DNA of 36,260 nucleotides from Caulobacter sp. (GTDB lineage: Bacteria; Pseudomonadota; Alphaproteobacteria; Caulobacterales; Caulobacteraceae): the NCBI GenBank assembly GCA_019636175.1, contig JAHBYC010000027.1, positions 1-36,260 on the forward strand. The letters run 5' to 3'. Position 1 is the first letter of the stretch. Every line of letters starts with the position of its first letter. The notes under the pieces are model-generated. The model was not told the origin of the DNA and searched no databases. It saw nothing but the letters and a program-made list of their open reading frames with translations. Below are positions 26,805 through 33,367 of the stretch, piece after piece. The position numbers and the translations under genes are program-made.

Positions 26805-26830
26805 GAGGTCCGGAAGGACCGACCTCTATT
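26805..26830. terminator. Possible terminator between convergent tetR and folC
   Basis: GAGGTCC-GGAA-GGACC-GA-CCTC forms a bulged hairpin, with TATTTC after it on the plus strand. It overlaps the folC stop codon. Weak by composition. Confidence 0.35.
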
Positions 26831-28145
26831 TCGGCCAGGTCTCGGGGCTGAGGGCGAGGACCTCGCCGGCGAGATAGAGGGATCCGCAGATCAGCAGCCG
26901 GGGCGGCGGGCCCTCGCCGGTCAGGGCCATGCCGATGGCCGCCTCAAGGCTGTCGGCGGCCTTCGCCTCCAGACCCGCGGCCCGCGCCGCGGAGACCAGG
27001 CGCTCGGGCGGACTGGCGGTGTCGGCGGCGAAGGGAATGGCGATGACCTGTCCATCGACCCCGCGCAGGGCGTCGAAGAAGCCCTCCGCGTCCTTGCCGG
27101 CCAGCATGCCGCAGATCAGGGTCGCGGGACGCCCGTCGCGGGCCTTCAGCGCCGCCAGGGCGTCGGCCAGGGCGCGGGCGGCGTGGACGTTGTGGCCGCC
27201 GTCGAGCCACAGGTCGCTTCCGACGGCGCGGGCGCGCTCGGCCAGCGGCCCGGCGGTCAGGCGCTGCATCCGCGCCGGCCAGACCACCGTCTCGATGCCC
27301 CGGGCGATGTCCGCCTCCGTGAGCCGGGGGTGGTCCAGCGCCAGGGCGGCCATGGCGGCCACGCCGGCGTTGGCGATCTGATGGGCTCCGACCAGCGCGG
27401 GCGCCGGCAGGTCGAGCAGCCGGTCGTCCGCCTGCAGCACCATGCGGCCGCCCTGGGCGTAGGCGTCGAAGTCGCGGCCCATGGCCGTCAGCGGGGCGCC
27501 CAGGGCCCGGGCCCGCGCCTCTATGACGGCGAAGGCCGCCTCGCCCTGCCAGCCGGTGACGACCGGCCGGCCGCGCTTGATGACGCCGGCCTTCTCTCCG
27601 GCGATGGAGGCGATGTCGTCGCCGAGGAATTCGCGGTGGTCATGGTCGACCGGACAGACCACGCTGACCGCCGGCTGCTCGATGACGTTGGTGGCGTCAA
27701 GGGAGCCGCCGAGGCCCACCTCCAGCAGGCAGAGGTCCGCCGGAACCTCGCTGAAGGCCTGGAAGGCCGCGGCGGTGGTGATCTCGAAGAAGGTGATGGG
27801 CTGGCCGGCGTTGGCGGCCTCGACCCGGGCCAGCACCTCGGCGAGGTGATCATCGGTGATCAGCTCGCCCGCCAGGCGGATGCGCTCGGCGAAGCGAACC
27901 AGATGCGGGGAGGTGAAGACATGGACCCTCAGACCCGCCGCCTCGGCCATGGCCCGCAGGAAGGCGACGGTGGAGCCCTTGCCGTTGGTCCCGGCGACAT
28001 GGATCACGGGCGGCAGGTGACGCTGCGGATCGCCAAGATCGGCGCAGAGACGCCGCATCCGGCCCAGCGACAGATCGATCAGCTTCGGGTGAAGCAGGCG
28101 CAGGCGCTCAAGAGCGGCGTCGTGGGGGAGCAGGTGGTCGGTCAT
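26826..28145 (-). CDS. folC: Dihydrofolate synthase / folylpolyglutamate synthase
   Basis: FolC adds glutamate to dihydropteroate and to folates. The 439-residue product has the Mur-ligase-type P-loop VIHVAGTNGKGSTVAFLR, TSPHLVRFAERIRL, LEVGLGGSLDATNVI, PVDHDHREFLG and the C-terminal WLDGGHNVHAARALADAL. Length is normal. It is downstream of accD, as in many proteobacteria, but a palindromic repeat of about 156 bases now lies between them. Confidence 0.95.
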   Translation of the reverse strand: MTDHLLPHDAALERLRLLHPKLIDLSLGRMRRLCADLGDPQRHLPPVIHVAGTNGKGSTVAFLRAMAEAAGLRVHVFTSPHLVRFAERIRLAGELITDDHLAEVLARVEAANAGQPITFFEITTAAAFQAFSEVPADLCLLEVGLGGSLDATNVIEQPAVSVVCPVDHDHREFLGDDIASIAGEKAGVIKRGRPVVTGWQGEAAFAVIEARARALGAPLTAMGRDFDAYAQGGRMVLQADDRLLDLPAPALVGAHQIANAGVAAMAALALDHPRLTEADIARGIETVVWPARMQRLTAGPLAERARAVGSDLWLDGGHNVHAARALADALAALKARDGRPATLICGMLAGKDAEGFFDALRGVDGQVIAIPFAADTASPPERLVSAARAAGLEAKAADSLEAAIGMALTGEGPPPRLLICGSLYLAGEVLALSPETWPK

Positions 28146-28391: not shown

Positions 28392-29321
28392 CTACGCCGC
28401 CTTCGAACCGGAGCGGCCCATCATCAGGGTGCCGAGCACCGAGCCGAGAATGGCCGGCAGGTCCTCGCGGCGGACGACGCGGTCGACCATGCCCTTCTCG
28501 ACCAGATACTCCGAGCGCTGGAAGCCCGGCGGCAGGGTCTCGCGAATGGTCTGTTCGATCACCCGGGGGCCGGCGAAACCGATCAGGGCGCCGGGTTCGG
28601 CCAGGTGGATGTCGCCCAGCATGGCGTAGCTGGCGGTGACCCCGCCGGTCGTCGGGTCGGTGAGCACCACGACGTAGGGCAGCTTGGCGGCCTTGAGTTC
28701 CTGGATCGCCAGGGTGGTGCGAGCCATCTGCATCAGGGACAGGGTGCCTTCCTGCATCCGGGCCCCGCCGGCGGCGGTGTAGATCACCAGCGGCGCCTGA
28801 CGTTCGACCGCGGCGCGGGCGGCGGCGATGAAGGCCTCGCCCGCGGCCATGCCCAGAGAGCCGCCCATGAAGGCGAAGTCCTGCACCAGCACCACGGCCG
28901 GCACATTGCGGATCTTGCCGAAGGCCAGGGCCATGGTGTCGGGCTCGCTGGTGGCCTTGCGGGCCTTGGCCAGGCGGTCCTTGTAGGGGCTGCCGTCGGA
29001 GAAGTTCAGCGGATCTTCCGGCACCTCAGGCGTCGGCAGGACCTCATGCGCCCCGTCATCGAAGGTGAAGGCGAAGCGCTGCTTGGGCCCGATGCGCATA
29101 TGCCGGCCGGCCGGGGTGACCCACAGGGCCGCCTCCAGGTCGGGGCGATAGATCATCTCGCCGGTGTCGGGACATTTGACCCACAGGTTTTCCGGGGTCT
29201 CGCGCTTGGTGAAGGCCCCGCGCACGCCGGGGGCGATGCGCGACAGCCAGCCGCCGCTGCGCTCCTTGCCGGAGACCGGGGGACGAGTGGGCTTGTCGCC
29301 CTTGGAGTCTGCCATAGCCAT
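28392..29321 (-). CDS. accD: Acetyl-CoA carboxylase carboxyltransferase, beta subunit
   Basis: AccD and AccA form the carboxyltransferase that makes malonyl-CoA for fatty acid synthesis. The 309-residue product has the carboxyltransferase signatures DFAFMGGSLGMAAGEAF, TAAGGARMQEGTLSLMQM, LTDPTTGGVTASYAMLGD and GFAGPRVIEQTIRETLP. The N-terminal zinc ribbon normally has four cysteines; here only Cys50 (LWVKCPDTGEMIYR) remains, and the second pair is replaced (WVTPAGRHMRIG). I believe this is shared by alphaproteobacterial AccDs, but cannot check. It begins 13 bases after trpA, making a trp-accD-folC unit. Confidence 0.95.
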   Translation of the reverse strand: MAMADSKGDKPTRPPVSGKERSGGWLSRIAPGVRGAFTKRETPENLWVKCPDTGEMIYRPDLEAALWVTPAGRHMRIGPKQRFAFTFDDGAHEVLPTPEVPEDPLNFSDGSPYKDRLAKARKATSEPDTMALAFGKIRNVPAVVLVQDFAFMGGSLGMAAGEAFIAAARAAVERQAPLVIYTAAGGARMQEGTLSLMQMARTTLAIQELKAAKLPYVVVLTDPTTGGVTASYAMLGDIHLAEPGALIGFAGPRVIEQTIRETLPPGFQRSEYLVEKGMVDRVVRREDLPAILGSVLGTLMMGRSGSKAA

Positions 29322-29334
29322 CGTCTTTAAAGCC

Positions 29335-30171
29335 TCAAGCCTTACCGACTCTCGCCGAACGCACAGCTTTCGCCAATGTCGACGCTTTGGAAAGAACGCG
29401 CGCGGTCACGTTTTCGTTCGAATTATCCCCGCCGGCCTCCAGAGCCGCCTGGACTTCATCCACGAAGGCGGAGCCGACGACAACCCCGTCGGCGACTTTC
29501 GCCACGGCGGCGGCCTGGTCGGGGGTGCGGATGCCAAAGCCGACGGCGACCGGCAGGCCGGAGGCGGCCCTGATCCGGGCCACGGCGGGGGCGACGTCGG
29601 CGGCGTCAGCCGACTTCACCCCGGTCACGCCGGCGACGGAGACGTAATAGACAAAGCCGGAGGTGCGTTTGACCACGGTCGGCAGGCGCTTGTCGTCGGT
29701 GGTCGGGGCGGTCAGGCGGATCAGGCTGATGCCGACCGCTTCCAGGGCGTCGGTCAGCTCGTCGGCCTCTTCCGGCGGGCAGTCGACGCAGATCAGGCCA
29801 TCGACCCCGGCGTCGGCGGCCCGGGCTGCGAAAGCCTCGTATCCGGCGCTGAACAGCGGGTTGAGATAGCCCATCAGCACGATCGGCGTGTCGTTGTCGG
29901 CCTTGCGGAAGTCGGCGACCAGCTGAAGGGTGCGATTGAGGGTCATGCCGGCCTTCAGGGCGCGCAAGGCGGCGCGCTGGATCGGCGGGCCCTCGGCCAT
30001 CGGGTCGGAGAAGGCGTAGCCCAGCTCGATGATGTCCACCCCGGCGCCCGGCAGGCCCTGAACGGTCTTCAGCGAGGTGTCGTAATCCGGGTCGCCGCCC
30101 ATGACATAGGCGACGAACGCGGCGCGGCCTTCGGCGGCGAGGGCGGCAAAGCGGGTGTCGATACGGTTCAT
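29335..30171 (-). CDS. trpA: Tryptophan synthase, alpha subunit
   Basis: TrpA cleaves indole-3-glycerol phosphate and channels indole to TrpB. The 278-residue product is a TIM barrel with [43 protein letters not shown] and [14 protein letters not shown]. Catalytic Glu49 is present. Position 60, Asp in the E. coli enzyme, is Glu here (AEGP), and the usual GIPFSDP is GYAFSDP. The ATG overlaps the stop of a small exported ORF (ATGA), whereas TrpA normally follows TrpB directly. Confidence 0.95.
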
Positions 30172-30596
30172 TCAGCGTTTCCCACCCAGCAATTGTTGGC
30201 TGGAATGTGCATGAACTGGAGGACTCGGGTCTCAAGTGAAGGGTTCTGCCCGGCGGCAACCGCCAGCGGCTTCACGGTGATCAGGAGTTGGCTGCAGCGT
30301 TTGTCAGGCTGATGCTTCTGGACCCACACTTGGTATTGCCCGCGGCGATATTCTTGCCAGCCGTGAGAAGCAAGGACCTCTACGTAGTTATCCAGCGCCT
30401 GAGGGGCATCAGTTCGGGACACAGCCACGCATGCAAAGCGCCGGGGCACAGGACCTCCGACCGGCGGCTGTTTGCAGTCTCGAAGCACGCCGACGACCAA
30501 CGGCAAATCTTGCGAGTCCGCAAAGAGCTGCGTCGGTGGATCCAAAGCTGCCGCCCCGGCCAGAACAATTGCAATAGCCAAGCCCGGGAGCGTCAA
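30168..30596 (-). CDS. Small exported protein between trpB and trpA
   Basis: The family is not recognised. Reading from TTG 30596 gives 142 residues: a signal peptide ([16 protein letters not shown]) and a mature part with four cysteines (DCKQPP, FACVAV, KRCSQL, NNCWVG), suitable for two disulfides. The TTG overlaps the trpB TGA (TTGA), and its own TGA overlaps the trpA ATG (ATGA). Base composition is lower in GC than its neighbours: 53, 58 and 67% in three 60-base lines, against 73% in a trpB line. A frame kept open with coupling at both ends suggests a translated gene, probably acquired. A non-ATG start lowers certainty. Confidence 0.65.
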
Positions 30597-31825
30597 ATCG
30601 TCCGTCCCAGAGCTTCGGCGACGGTGAAGATGTCCTTGTCGCCGCGGCCGCACATGTTCATCACGATGATCCCGTCCTTGCCGAGGTCCCTGGCCAGATC
30701 GCCAACCCGGGCCAGGGCGTGGGCCGGTTCGAGGGCCGGGATGATGCCCTCCTGTTCGGCGCAGAGCTGGAAGGCGGCAAGCGCCTCCTTGTCGGTGGCG
30801 CTGATGTATTCGGCGCGGCCGGTCTCATGCAGGAAGCTGTGTTCGGGACCGATGCCCGGGTAGTCGAGGCCGGCGCTGATCGAATGGGCGTCGATGATCT
30901 GGCCGTCGTCGTCCTGCAAGAGATAGGTCTTGTTGCCGTGCAGGACGCCGGGGCGGCCGCCGGTCAGGCTGGCGGCGTGCTGGCCGCTCTCGATGCCGTG
31001 GCCGGCCGCCTCGACGCCGATCAGACGCACGCCCTCGTCGGCGAGGAAGGGGTGGAAGAGGCCGATGGCGTTGGAGCCGCCGCCGATGCAGGCGACCACG
31101 GCGTCGGGCAGACGGCCCTCGACGGCCAGGATCTGCTCGCGGGCCTCGTGGCCGATGATCGACTGGAAGTCGCGAACCATGGCCGGATAGGGGTGCGGCC
31201 CGGCCGCGGTGCCGATCAGGTAGTAGGTGTCCTCGACGTTCGTGACCCAATCCCGCATCGCCTCGTTCATGGCGTCCTTGAGGGTGCCGGCGCCCGAGGT
31301 GACGGGACGGACCTCGGCGCCCAGCAGGTTCATGCGGAAGACGTTGGGCTTCTGCCGCTCGACGTCGGTGGCGCCCATGTAGACCACGCAGGGAAGGCCG
31401 AAGCGGGCGCAGACGGTGGCGGTGGCCACGCCGTGCTGACCGGCGCCGGTCTCGGCGATGATCCGGGTCTTGCCCATGCGGCGGGCCAGCAGGATCTGGC
31501 CCAGCGCATTGTTGATCTTGTGGCTGCCGGTGTGATTGAGCTCGTCGCGCTTGAAGTAGATTTTCGCGCCGCCGAAATAGTCGGTCAGCCGCTCGGCGAA
31601 ATAGATCGGGCTGGGCCGGCCGGTGTAGTGCCGGTGGAAGCGGGTCAGCTCGGCCTGGTATTCGGGGTCGGCCTTGGCGGCGGCGTAGGCCTCGCCCAGG
31701 TCCAGCACCAGCGGCATCAAGGTCTCGGCGACATAGAGGCCGCCGAACTCGCCGAACTTGCCCCGCGCGTCGGGCAGGGCGTTCCAGTCGTTGGGGCGTT
31801 CGGTCGGCGTAACAGGGGCGTTCAA
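30593..31825 (-). CDS. trpB: Tryptophan synthase, beta subunit
   Basis: TrpB condenses indole with serine using pyridoxal phosphate. The 410-residue product shows [17 protein letters not shown], the PLP lysine in [16 protein letters not shown] (Lys103), [16 protein letters not shown] and the phosphate-binding [16 protein letters not shown]. Length is normal. It begins seven bases after trpF. The last codons (LGRTI) end at the TGA that overlaps the TTG of the following small ORF. Confidence 0.97.
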
Positions 31826-31832
31826 GGCGGGC

Positions 31833-32489
31833 TCACACGCTGCGCACGGCGTCCAGAAAGGCCGTGATCAAGGGGGCGTCCTTTAGCCCCGGACCCCGCT
31901 CCACGCCAGAGGAAACGTCCGCGACGGGCGCGCCGGAGATCTTCAGCGCCTCGGCTACGTTCCAGGGGTCGAGACCGCCGGCCAGCATGTGAGGCCGGGC
32001 GTAGCGGCGGCCGGCCAGCAGGGTCCAGTCGAATTTCGCTCCCATGCCGCCGGGAAGCTCGGACCCGGCCGGGGGCCTGGCGTCAAACATCAGATGCTCG
32101 ACCAGGGCGTCGTAGGGCGCGGCGGCGGCGATGTCGGAGGCCTCGGAGACCGAAAGAACCTTGATCACCCCGACCCCGGTCCGGGTCCGCACCTGCGCCA
32201 CGCGGGCCGGCGTTTCGCGGCCGTGCAACTGGATCAGGTCGGGCCTGAGGGTGGTCATCAGCTGGTCAAGCAGGGCATCGTTGGGATCAACGGTGACGGC
32301 GACCAGTTTCGGCGGCTGACGGGGGCCGTCGCGGCGCACCGGTTCGGCCAGCCGGGCGGCAGCCTCGGGCGTGACGTAGCGCGGGCTTTTCGCGAAAAAG
32401 TTGAACCCCAGGAAGGCGGCGCCGCCATCGACCGCCGCCCGCACCGTCTCCGCCGTGGACAGGCCGCAGATCTTGGCTGTCGCCATCAT
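31833..32489 (-). CDS. trpF: Phosphoribosylanthranilate isomerase
   Basis: TrpF isomerises phosphoribosylanthranilate, the third step of tryptophan synthesis. The 218-residue TIM barrel has [16 protein letters not shown] (catalytic Cys), [47 protein letters not shown] and [15 protein letters not shown]. The start may be ATG 32489, which overlaps the upstream stop as ATGA, or ATG 32486. Order trpF-trpB-(orf)-trpA is the usual alphaproteobacterial arrangement apart from the extra ORF. Confidence 0.95.
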
Positions 32490-33367
32490 GAGCAGCCCGG
32501 GGCAGCCGTTTGGCGCGTCATTGTCAGGGTTTCGCGAAAGGCGTAGCCGGCCGGGGCCGTTCTTGTCTTCGTCTGGGTCAGGGTGACTGGCAGAGCGTCT
32601 GCCGCCAGCGTCGCCTGGGTCACCAGAGCCTCGTCATAGCCGGTCGCCGCAATTCTGAAGCGGGAGTTGCGGCTGTAGGTGATCTCGCAGCGGGCCTGGT
32701 CAACGGCGTCGATCTTCATTCCGCCGTCGGCCACCATGGTCGATCCGTCAGCAAGCGTTTCCGTTCGGGTGGGCATGACGAAGGGCTTGTTGGGAATCCG
32801 CGGCAGATGCATGCCCGCCAGATTATTGACATCCCCGGCCATCCAAACCGACAGGCCATCCGCGCGGCTTTCCAGATCCTTGAACAGGCCCTCCAGCGCC
32901 ACCCTCGCCCCGGCCTCGTCAGTGGCGGTTGTCTTCAGATTGGCGAAGACCTGCTTGCGGACATCCGCCCCGTTGAGGGTCACCCCGGGATAGACGCCAT
33001 TGACGGTGCGAAACTCGACGGGCACGCCGACGAAGGCCGCCATGATCTCCTGAATACCGGGTTGCCGCTCATCGACGATCACCACACTGCGCAGGGTGTA
33101 TCGGAAGACGGGCTGACCATCCGCCTCGACCCTGACCACCTCAAGGTCGAAGGTCTGGTTGTTGGACTGGGCGCCGGGATGATCGCCGCCCACCTCGGTG
33201 AGGCGGGTTTCCGAAAGATAGCGCCAGTGATCGCCCGCCTTGAAGGGCAGCGTCTGAACCTGGAAAAACCCGCCATCGGGCGTCTCGATGGTTATTGCCG
33301 GCGGCGCGGCGGCAACCGGCCCCGCCAGGCACAGGCCAAGACAGACCAGGAGCGGGGCAAGGCGCAT
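32486..33367 (-). CDS. Exported protein of unknown function
   Basis: The family is not recognised. The 293-residue product starts with a Sec signal peptide (RLAPLLVCLGLCLAGPVAAA). The mature part is mostly predicted beta-rich: FKAGDHWRYLSETRLTEVGG, TFDLEVVRVEADGQPVFRYTLRSV, CEITYSRNSRFRIAATG and VTLTQTKTRTAPAGYAF. It is probably periplasmic or outer-membrane associated. It begins two bases after mscL and overlaps trpF by four bases, so it is embedded in the same transcription unit. Codon use is somewhat less GC-rich than in trpB. Confidence 0.75.
   Translation of the reverse strand: MRLAPLLVCLGLCLAGPVAAAPPAITIETPDGGFFQVQTLPFKAGDHWRYLSETRLTEVGGDHPGAQSNNQTFDLEVVRVEADGQPVFRYTLRSVVIVDERQPGIQEIMAAFVGVPVEFRTVNGVYPGVTLNGADVRKQVFANLKTTATDEAGARVALEGLFKDLESRADGLSVWMAGDVNNLAGMHLPRIPNKPFVMPTRTETLADGSTMVADGGMKIDAVDQARCEITYSRNSRFRIAATGYDEALVTQATLAADALPVTLTQTKTRTAPAGYAFRETLTMTRQTAAPGCS

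Follow-up and report, generated by a model that had tools for sequence, protein, structure and literature searches.

Small four-cysteine proteins of predicted exported type encoded between trpB and trpA in Caulobacter and its relatives

The genes trpB and trpA are a textbook example of a coupled gene pair. In Escherichia coli the two are known to be coupled by an overlap of their codons (Das and Yanofsky 1989, cited in the available text of PMC10666635). A gene of unknown function, unrelated to trp, is already known from between trpB and trpA in the split operon trpF-trpB-X-trpA of Burkholderia and also in Flavobacterium, and in the available part of that paper the authors suggest that such inserted genes are possibly morons or helpers (PMC2395257). 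In the accessible portion of PMC10269605 trpB is used only as a typing gene, and the literature searched contained no report of a four-cysteine trpB-X-trpA family in Caulobacter or Brevundimonas.

The locus described here, from a Caulobacter sp. (GenBank contig JAHBYC010000027.1), is similar to those of Burkholderia and Flavobacterium, as far as the available text on them goes, in that a trp-unrelated gene, here called X, sits between trpB and trpA. It differs from the Burkholderia X, compared by description only, in that the present X would encode a small exported-type four-cysteine protein of Caulobacterales, and in that its family forms tandem arrays and is present in some close relatives but absent from others. 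By analogy with E. coli, as described in the available text of PMC10666635, overlapping stop and start codons would pass ribosomes toward trpA, with the difference that in the present locus an extra ORF would be part of the relay. Within the searched literature what seems to be new is the family itself, its attachment to the slot in several families of the order, where it expands in tandem and turns over, and the almost constant bridging of inserts.

The trpB-X-trpA locus of the window

The window, meaning the whole stretch of 36,260 nt that was analysed, carries on its minus strand trpB (30593–31825), identified by protein comparison and with a product 94–96% identical over the aligned parts to those of loci L005, L006, L007 and L034, and trpA (29335–30171), for which every one of the 61 genomes searched, that of the window among them, gave a match. 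Between them the ORF reading of the window places X at 30168–30596 on the same strand, with 142 codons and a TTG start. Judged by their proteins, the neighbouring minus-strand genes that form the operon context are probably trpF (31833–32489), accD (28392–29321) and folC (26826–28145). The order trpA-accD-folC matches that described in the available text of PMC2395257.

The initial annotation had described an ORF fitted between trpB and trpA by 4-nt overlaps on both sides, and this is borne out by the coordinates. The 3' end of trpB reads TTTGA on the minus strand and the TTG at 30596 overlaps the TGA of trpB (TTGA, 30593–30596), while the TGA stop of X overlaps the ATG of trpA (ATGA, 30168–30171). 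The start at TTG 30596 is putative, an in-frame TTG at codon 6 being the alternative.

As had also been noted at the outset, X is of lower GC, with 59.9% compared to 68–73% for trpF, trpB, trpA, accD and folC. Its third-position GC is 0.643, against 0.86–0.92 in those same genes and 0.78–0.88 in three other window genes measured, and the GC at the three codon positions (0.70/0.455/0.643) follows a coding pattern. The predicted protein, P0001, contains four cysteines (C41, C56, C101 and C136) and a GW motif (G79-W80), and its N-terminus is, by eye, hydrophobic and without positive residue. The proposal of a real gene for an exported-type four-cysteine protein stands on the open frame, the codon-position GC, the cysteine count, and the profile homology and structure model given below, with export suggested, as judged by eye, by this N-terminus and by those of relatives.

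Homology, constraint and predicted fold of the X protein

The first searches made X look like an orphan, and the trpB-trpA junction itself was for that reason read in relatives. When 101 related genomes were searched with P0001 as a single sequence the only clear match was in its own genome, with two further matches (E 0.003–0.006) in long frames; a search of phages gave no match and one of plasmids a single weak partial match. Against Pfam the best match reached E 0.089 and 13.2 bits, the curated cut-off being 27. Pfam, NCBIfam and solved structures gave no match of note and PHROGs none; across Pfam, NCBIfam, PHROGs and PADLOC P0001 stayed below cut-off or a clear E-value, another best match having E 0.037 and 11.1 bits. 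The relatives of X that were searched likewise gave no family assignment, and one of them (L129) matches phrog_17588, annotated as of unknown function, with E 0.0022.

The ORFs of genomes G017 and G110 (137 and 140 aa) are like the window ORF in length and cysteine pattern, and no pairwise link between them and the window ORF was found by sequence comparison. Of two further proteins, P0002 and P0003, P0002 taken alone gave no significant result against P0001 (BLASTP E 2.0; hhalign P 0.064). The search for homologues proposed at the outset succeeded with a profile built from six Brevundimonas genes that stand second or third in the slot, which P0001 matches with 40.9 bits over residues 9–138, all four cysteines being aligned. 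None of the 4999 reported shuffles of P0001 reached this score, the best giving 10.5 bits, and the match has E ~1e-10 when P0001, P0002, P0003 and their shuffles, 15,003 sequences together, are searched. P0002 reaches 21.5 on the same profile, where the best of its shuffles has 13.0. P0003 by itself was not significant against three of four profiles, where 2 of 4869, 2 of 4854 and 2 of 4460 own shuffles scored as high, and against the pooled profile it was barely above its best shuffle (14.4 and 14.2); it was assigned to the family through its 68% identity to P0002. Profiles of first-slot Brevundimonas genes gave P0001 only 13.2 and 13.3 bits, yet above all shuffles. In an alignment of 26 sequences (MAFFT) three cysteines are invariant, and C41 of P0001, aligned in the HMM match, is shifted.

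Judged by profile homology X is a genuine member of a trpB-X-trpA family and neither orphan nor remnant. The family is unnamed, and its members appear to be small lipoproteins or proteins of exported type, most of which have four cysteines and the GW motif. Its members diverge fast and are therefore easily missed by ordinary searches, and it is their position that gives them away.

Since P0001 is without a close relative, dN/dS was taken from relatives, the window protein being excluded. In 10 hand-picked pairs of relatives it was 0.06–0.31 for X and 0.03–0.11 for trpA of the same pairs, while X was saturated in one more pair, the eleventh (pN/pS 0.40; its trpA 0.32). Purifying selection on the relatives of X is evident from these values. 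By eye, the Brevundimonas members have signal-peptide-like starts and several members of other families lipobox-like starts; the product of X accordingly looks exported, and its cysteines may form disulphides.

The AlphaFold2 model of P0001 has a core of a strand, a helix and four strands with mean pLDDT of 94–96 over residues 61–110, falling to 78–90 over residues 111–140 and to below 65 in the first 50 residues (mean 77.9), and a second member, when modelled, gave the same core (mean pLDDT 89.2). Foldseek returned no match at E 0.001 or better. Above that value its list contains rows for KA1 domains (AMPK alpha, MARK3 and Chk1; probability up to 1.0, E 0.03–0.2, several rows having probability 0.98–1.0 at E 0.05–0.1) and, more weakly, BamC of E. 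coli (E 0.12, probability 0.38), which have a similar strand-helix-strands topology, together with unrelated proteins of similar rank. P0001 gave no match to the Pfam KA1 family, and the likeness to KA1 and BamC would be one of topology only.

Occupancy of the trpB-trpA slot among relatives

A profile of three sequences matched 10 of 299 genomes of the bacterial family, seven of them weakly, and one of the weak matches, in another genus (Brevundimonas), lay exactly between trpB and trpA. In that genus the family was present in 11 of 15 junctions, these being drawn from the best-listed trpA matches, chosen without regard to X. A scan of named contigs with 12 such Brevundimonas proteins, which reaches only close relatives of the Brevundimonas genes, gave 72 loci, mostly titled Brevundimonas, and the match sits between trpB and trpA in all 72. 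When 10 larger junctions were re-read, seven contained a tandem second four-cysteine gene and one of these also a third.

For the wider searches a profile made from the 26-sequence alignment was used at E 0.001 or better, which found the family in 65 of 299 genomes of the bacterial family, 21 of 150 of the order and 3 of 240 of the class. Each of these counts includes the genome of the window. The family-level matches comprise 60 of the 72 genomes of the Brevundimonas genus (g19), three genomes of the window's genus, one genome of a further genus (G121), and G337, where the match is probably a misbinned Brevundimonas contig. Brevundimonas-type trp loci were seen in MAGs labelled Phenylobacterium and Bordetella (L144 and L175), and these are probably misbinned contigs.

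Among 18 places fetched at order, family and class level, 11 lie between trpB and trpA and seven elsewhere. The 11 slot loci span families f1 to f4 of the order, the window's own family included. Four of the seven places outside the slot are without the four-cysteine pattern and may be only distantly related. The other three look four-cysteine: one is in a Brevundimonas that also has a slot copy, another is L221, and the remaining one (L227:2358-2849) is a lipoprotein-type member adjoining not trp genes but a gene that is presumably pheS-like.

From 24 order-level genomes 22 junctions were fetched, those of G069 and G081 because of their X match, and in both X occupies the slot. The other 20 are without X: 10 have no insert, one a cutA-like gene, four other or unclear content, and five were unreadable. 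In family f2 of the order the junctions of L231, L235, L242 and L246 contain what we take to be a cutA-like gene; three of the four also have a lipoprotein-like ORF, and one an ORF that is presumably GFA-like. X is thus common in Brevundimonas and patchy elsewhere, and the slot also accepts unrelated genes. The unusual context claimed in the initial annotation is real as a trpB-X-trpA arrangement, but it is not unique to the window, as the same family fills the slot in several families.

Of 75 genomes in the genus of the window 74 yielded a trpA, and 75 loci from these 74 genomes were classed (one genome supplied two), an insert being defined as 60 nt or more between trpB and trpA. No insert is present in 59 of the 75 junctions; three contain a family-X gene and 11 another spanning ORF, and the last two are a locus with an 88-nt insert left unclassed by the rule and one unreadable from truncated trpB. 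The comparison of this junction in relatives, which had been proposed beforehand, hence gives a mostly insert-free junction, the nearest species included. This species, G038 by trpA (96%), has a trpA that appears to start at a TTG overlapping the trpB stop, the site used as the X start in the window, and in the five 60-nt blocks beside the junction its identity to the window is 0.93–0.98 on the trpB side and 0.88–1.00 on the trpA side. G060 and G019 are also without insert.

A tree of the flanks (~270 nt of trpB and up to 540 nt of trpA from 12 hand-picked loci) interleaves the insert states. The window has X, and G110 and G017 have another X; G014 and G040 have a membrane-type ORF of 43 aa; the sister of the window, G038, is without insert, as are G060 and G019. 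The support is 0.986 for the window with G038, and several other nodes are weak. Such mixed states among close relatives suggest that X was gained in the lineage of the window and that turnover of the slot is high, in line with the insertion first proposed: the three relatives without insert and the conserved flanks look like a gain. The preference for gain over loss would follow from parsimony across weakly supported nodes, repeated precise loss being the alternative. In the gene tree P0001 is on a long branch with low support, apart from the other two genus members, which would be compatible with either gain or an old paralogue.

Bridging of inserts and explanations for the slot

Inserts were regarded as bridged when one ORF or a chain of ORFs connects the stop of trpB with the start of trpA. 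Of 38 readable inserts of at least 60 nt, drawn irrespective of X, 36 are bridged: all 15 from the genus of the window, 12 of 13 from Brevundimonas, all five from other genera of the family and 4 of 5 from other families. Loci selected for their X gene give 69 of 72 (named) and 9 of 11 (fetched). If X is taken to begin at its most upstream start (TTG, GTG or ATG), this start shares 4 or 1 nt with the trpB stop in 10 of 11 order-level slot loci. At the trpB stop of the 72 named loci the letters are GTGA in 29, TTGA in 5, CTGA in 5, TAG in 24 and TAA in 9.

Open frames are common in GC-rich DNA. The bridging by the window insert nevertheless exceeds chance: shuffled with dinucleotides, length and flanks kept, it still bridged in 113 of 3000 cases, under a null that is generous to chance since the phase of the frame and the start and stop letters of the flanks are preserved. 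Shuffles of single inserts with length kept remained bridged in 26 to 2345 of 3000, and the weight therefore lies in the repeated outcome, single cases proving little. Several inserts of the window's genus are repeat-like (L042, L048, L056, L029, L064, L017 and L018) and form ORFs from trpB stop to trpA start. The bridging ORFs of L017, L018, L029, L042 and relatives look repeat-derived by eye, for which reason it seems to be the relay rather than the peptide that is kept there.

The inserts that broke the relay to trpA have, we infer, mostly been lost. In the 59 insert-free junctions of the window's genus 25 have their trpA start at -4, -1 or 0, counted from where the trpB stop ends, and the other 34 at +5 to +27 nt, and overlap as such is therefore not strictly required. 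The earlier idea that the exact fit reflects selection for trpA coupling agrees with the bridging of inserts, which such selection predicts.

We consider it probable that X is a genuine gene of a fast-evolving family, an exported-type envelope passenger in a high-turnover slot in which the trpB-to-trpA relay is kept. This reading builds on what can be read directly from the letters, namely homology, purifying selection on the relatives, position, precise fit and absence in the nearest species. X was probably gained as a passenger where trpA formerly started on a TTG overlapping the trpB stop and would have taken over that TTG; it would be translated by termination-reinitiation from trpB and pass ribosomes on to trpA via its own ATGA, the precise fit resulting from selection for continuous trpB-to-trpA translation. 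Its role would be in the envelope and unrelated to tryptophan chemistry, as tryptophan synthase is an improbable target for a protein that leaves the cytoplasm. Counter to a random passenger, the long-lived preference for the trpB-trpA slot exceeds expectation, and it is so persistent that a tie to tryptophan physiology becomes the main rival. Tentatively, the junction may be a long-lived capture slot which ORFs for small, fast-evolving envelope proteins repeatedly enter, duplicate in and leave, but only while keeping the relay; the four-cysteine family would have been tied to it from a time that predates the divergence of the families of the order, because its level of expression has to follow that of tryptophan synthase.

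That X has a functional link with tryptophan synthesis, or with the sensing at the envelope of tryptophan or indole, and that the slot is kept for co-regulation with trpB and trpA, we regard as unlikely, as its product looks exported while tryptophan synthase is cytoplasmic, most junctions of the window's genus are without insert (59 of 75), the slot is also used by unrelated ORFs and family members occur off the trp locus (L219 and L227). It would nevertheless account for a slot association that spans four families, for the presence of the family in most Brevundimonas genomes (60 of 72), for the purifying selection on relatives and for tandem copies that remain inside the operon, and the idea of such genes aiding the pathway is raised in the available text of PMC2395257. 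X could also be a selfish or mobile passenger, spread by recombination between the conserved flanks in trpB and trpA and persisting since most disruptive deletions uncouple trpA. The insert states mixed among close relatives at an exact junction, the low third-position GC of the window copy and, with weak support, the separation of P0001 from the other two genus members would suit this, but the flanks of the window copy look native with no imported flank visible, no match to phages or PHROGs was found for P0001, and the dN/dS values are those of a conserved protein in the relatives, which makes it rather improbable.

Very improbable is a translated spacer in which only the open frame matters and the protein is functionless: the repeat-like inserts of relatives are ORF-bridged as well, but in the X family the cysteines and the GW motif are kept across great divergence, dN/dS of the relatives is well below 1 and the core of the fold is confidently modelled. 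The least credible reading is a decayed remnant or fortuitous open frame, an alternative named beforehand, to which the lower GC and the simple 101-genome search without a clear relative could have pointed; it is strongly opposed by the 40.9-bit profile match, which covers nearly the whole protein with its four cysteines aligned, and by the codon-position GC signal.

With many natural insertions in trpB-trpA, nearly all of those sampled keeping translation open, the junction offers a natural test of selection for coupling, and its reading brings to light an unnamed family of predicted envelope proteins. A further exported-looking ORF is found in the window directly upstream of the presumed trpF, at 32570–33340 on the minus strand.
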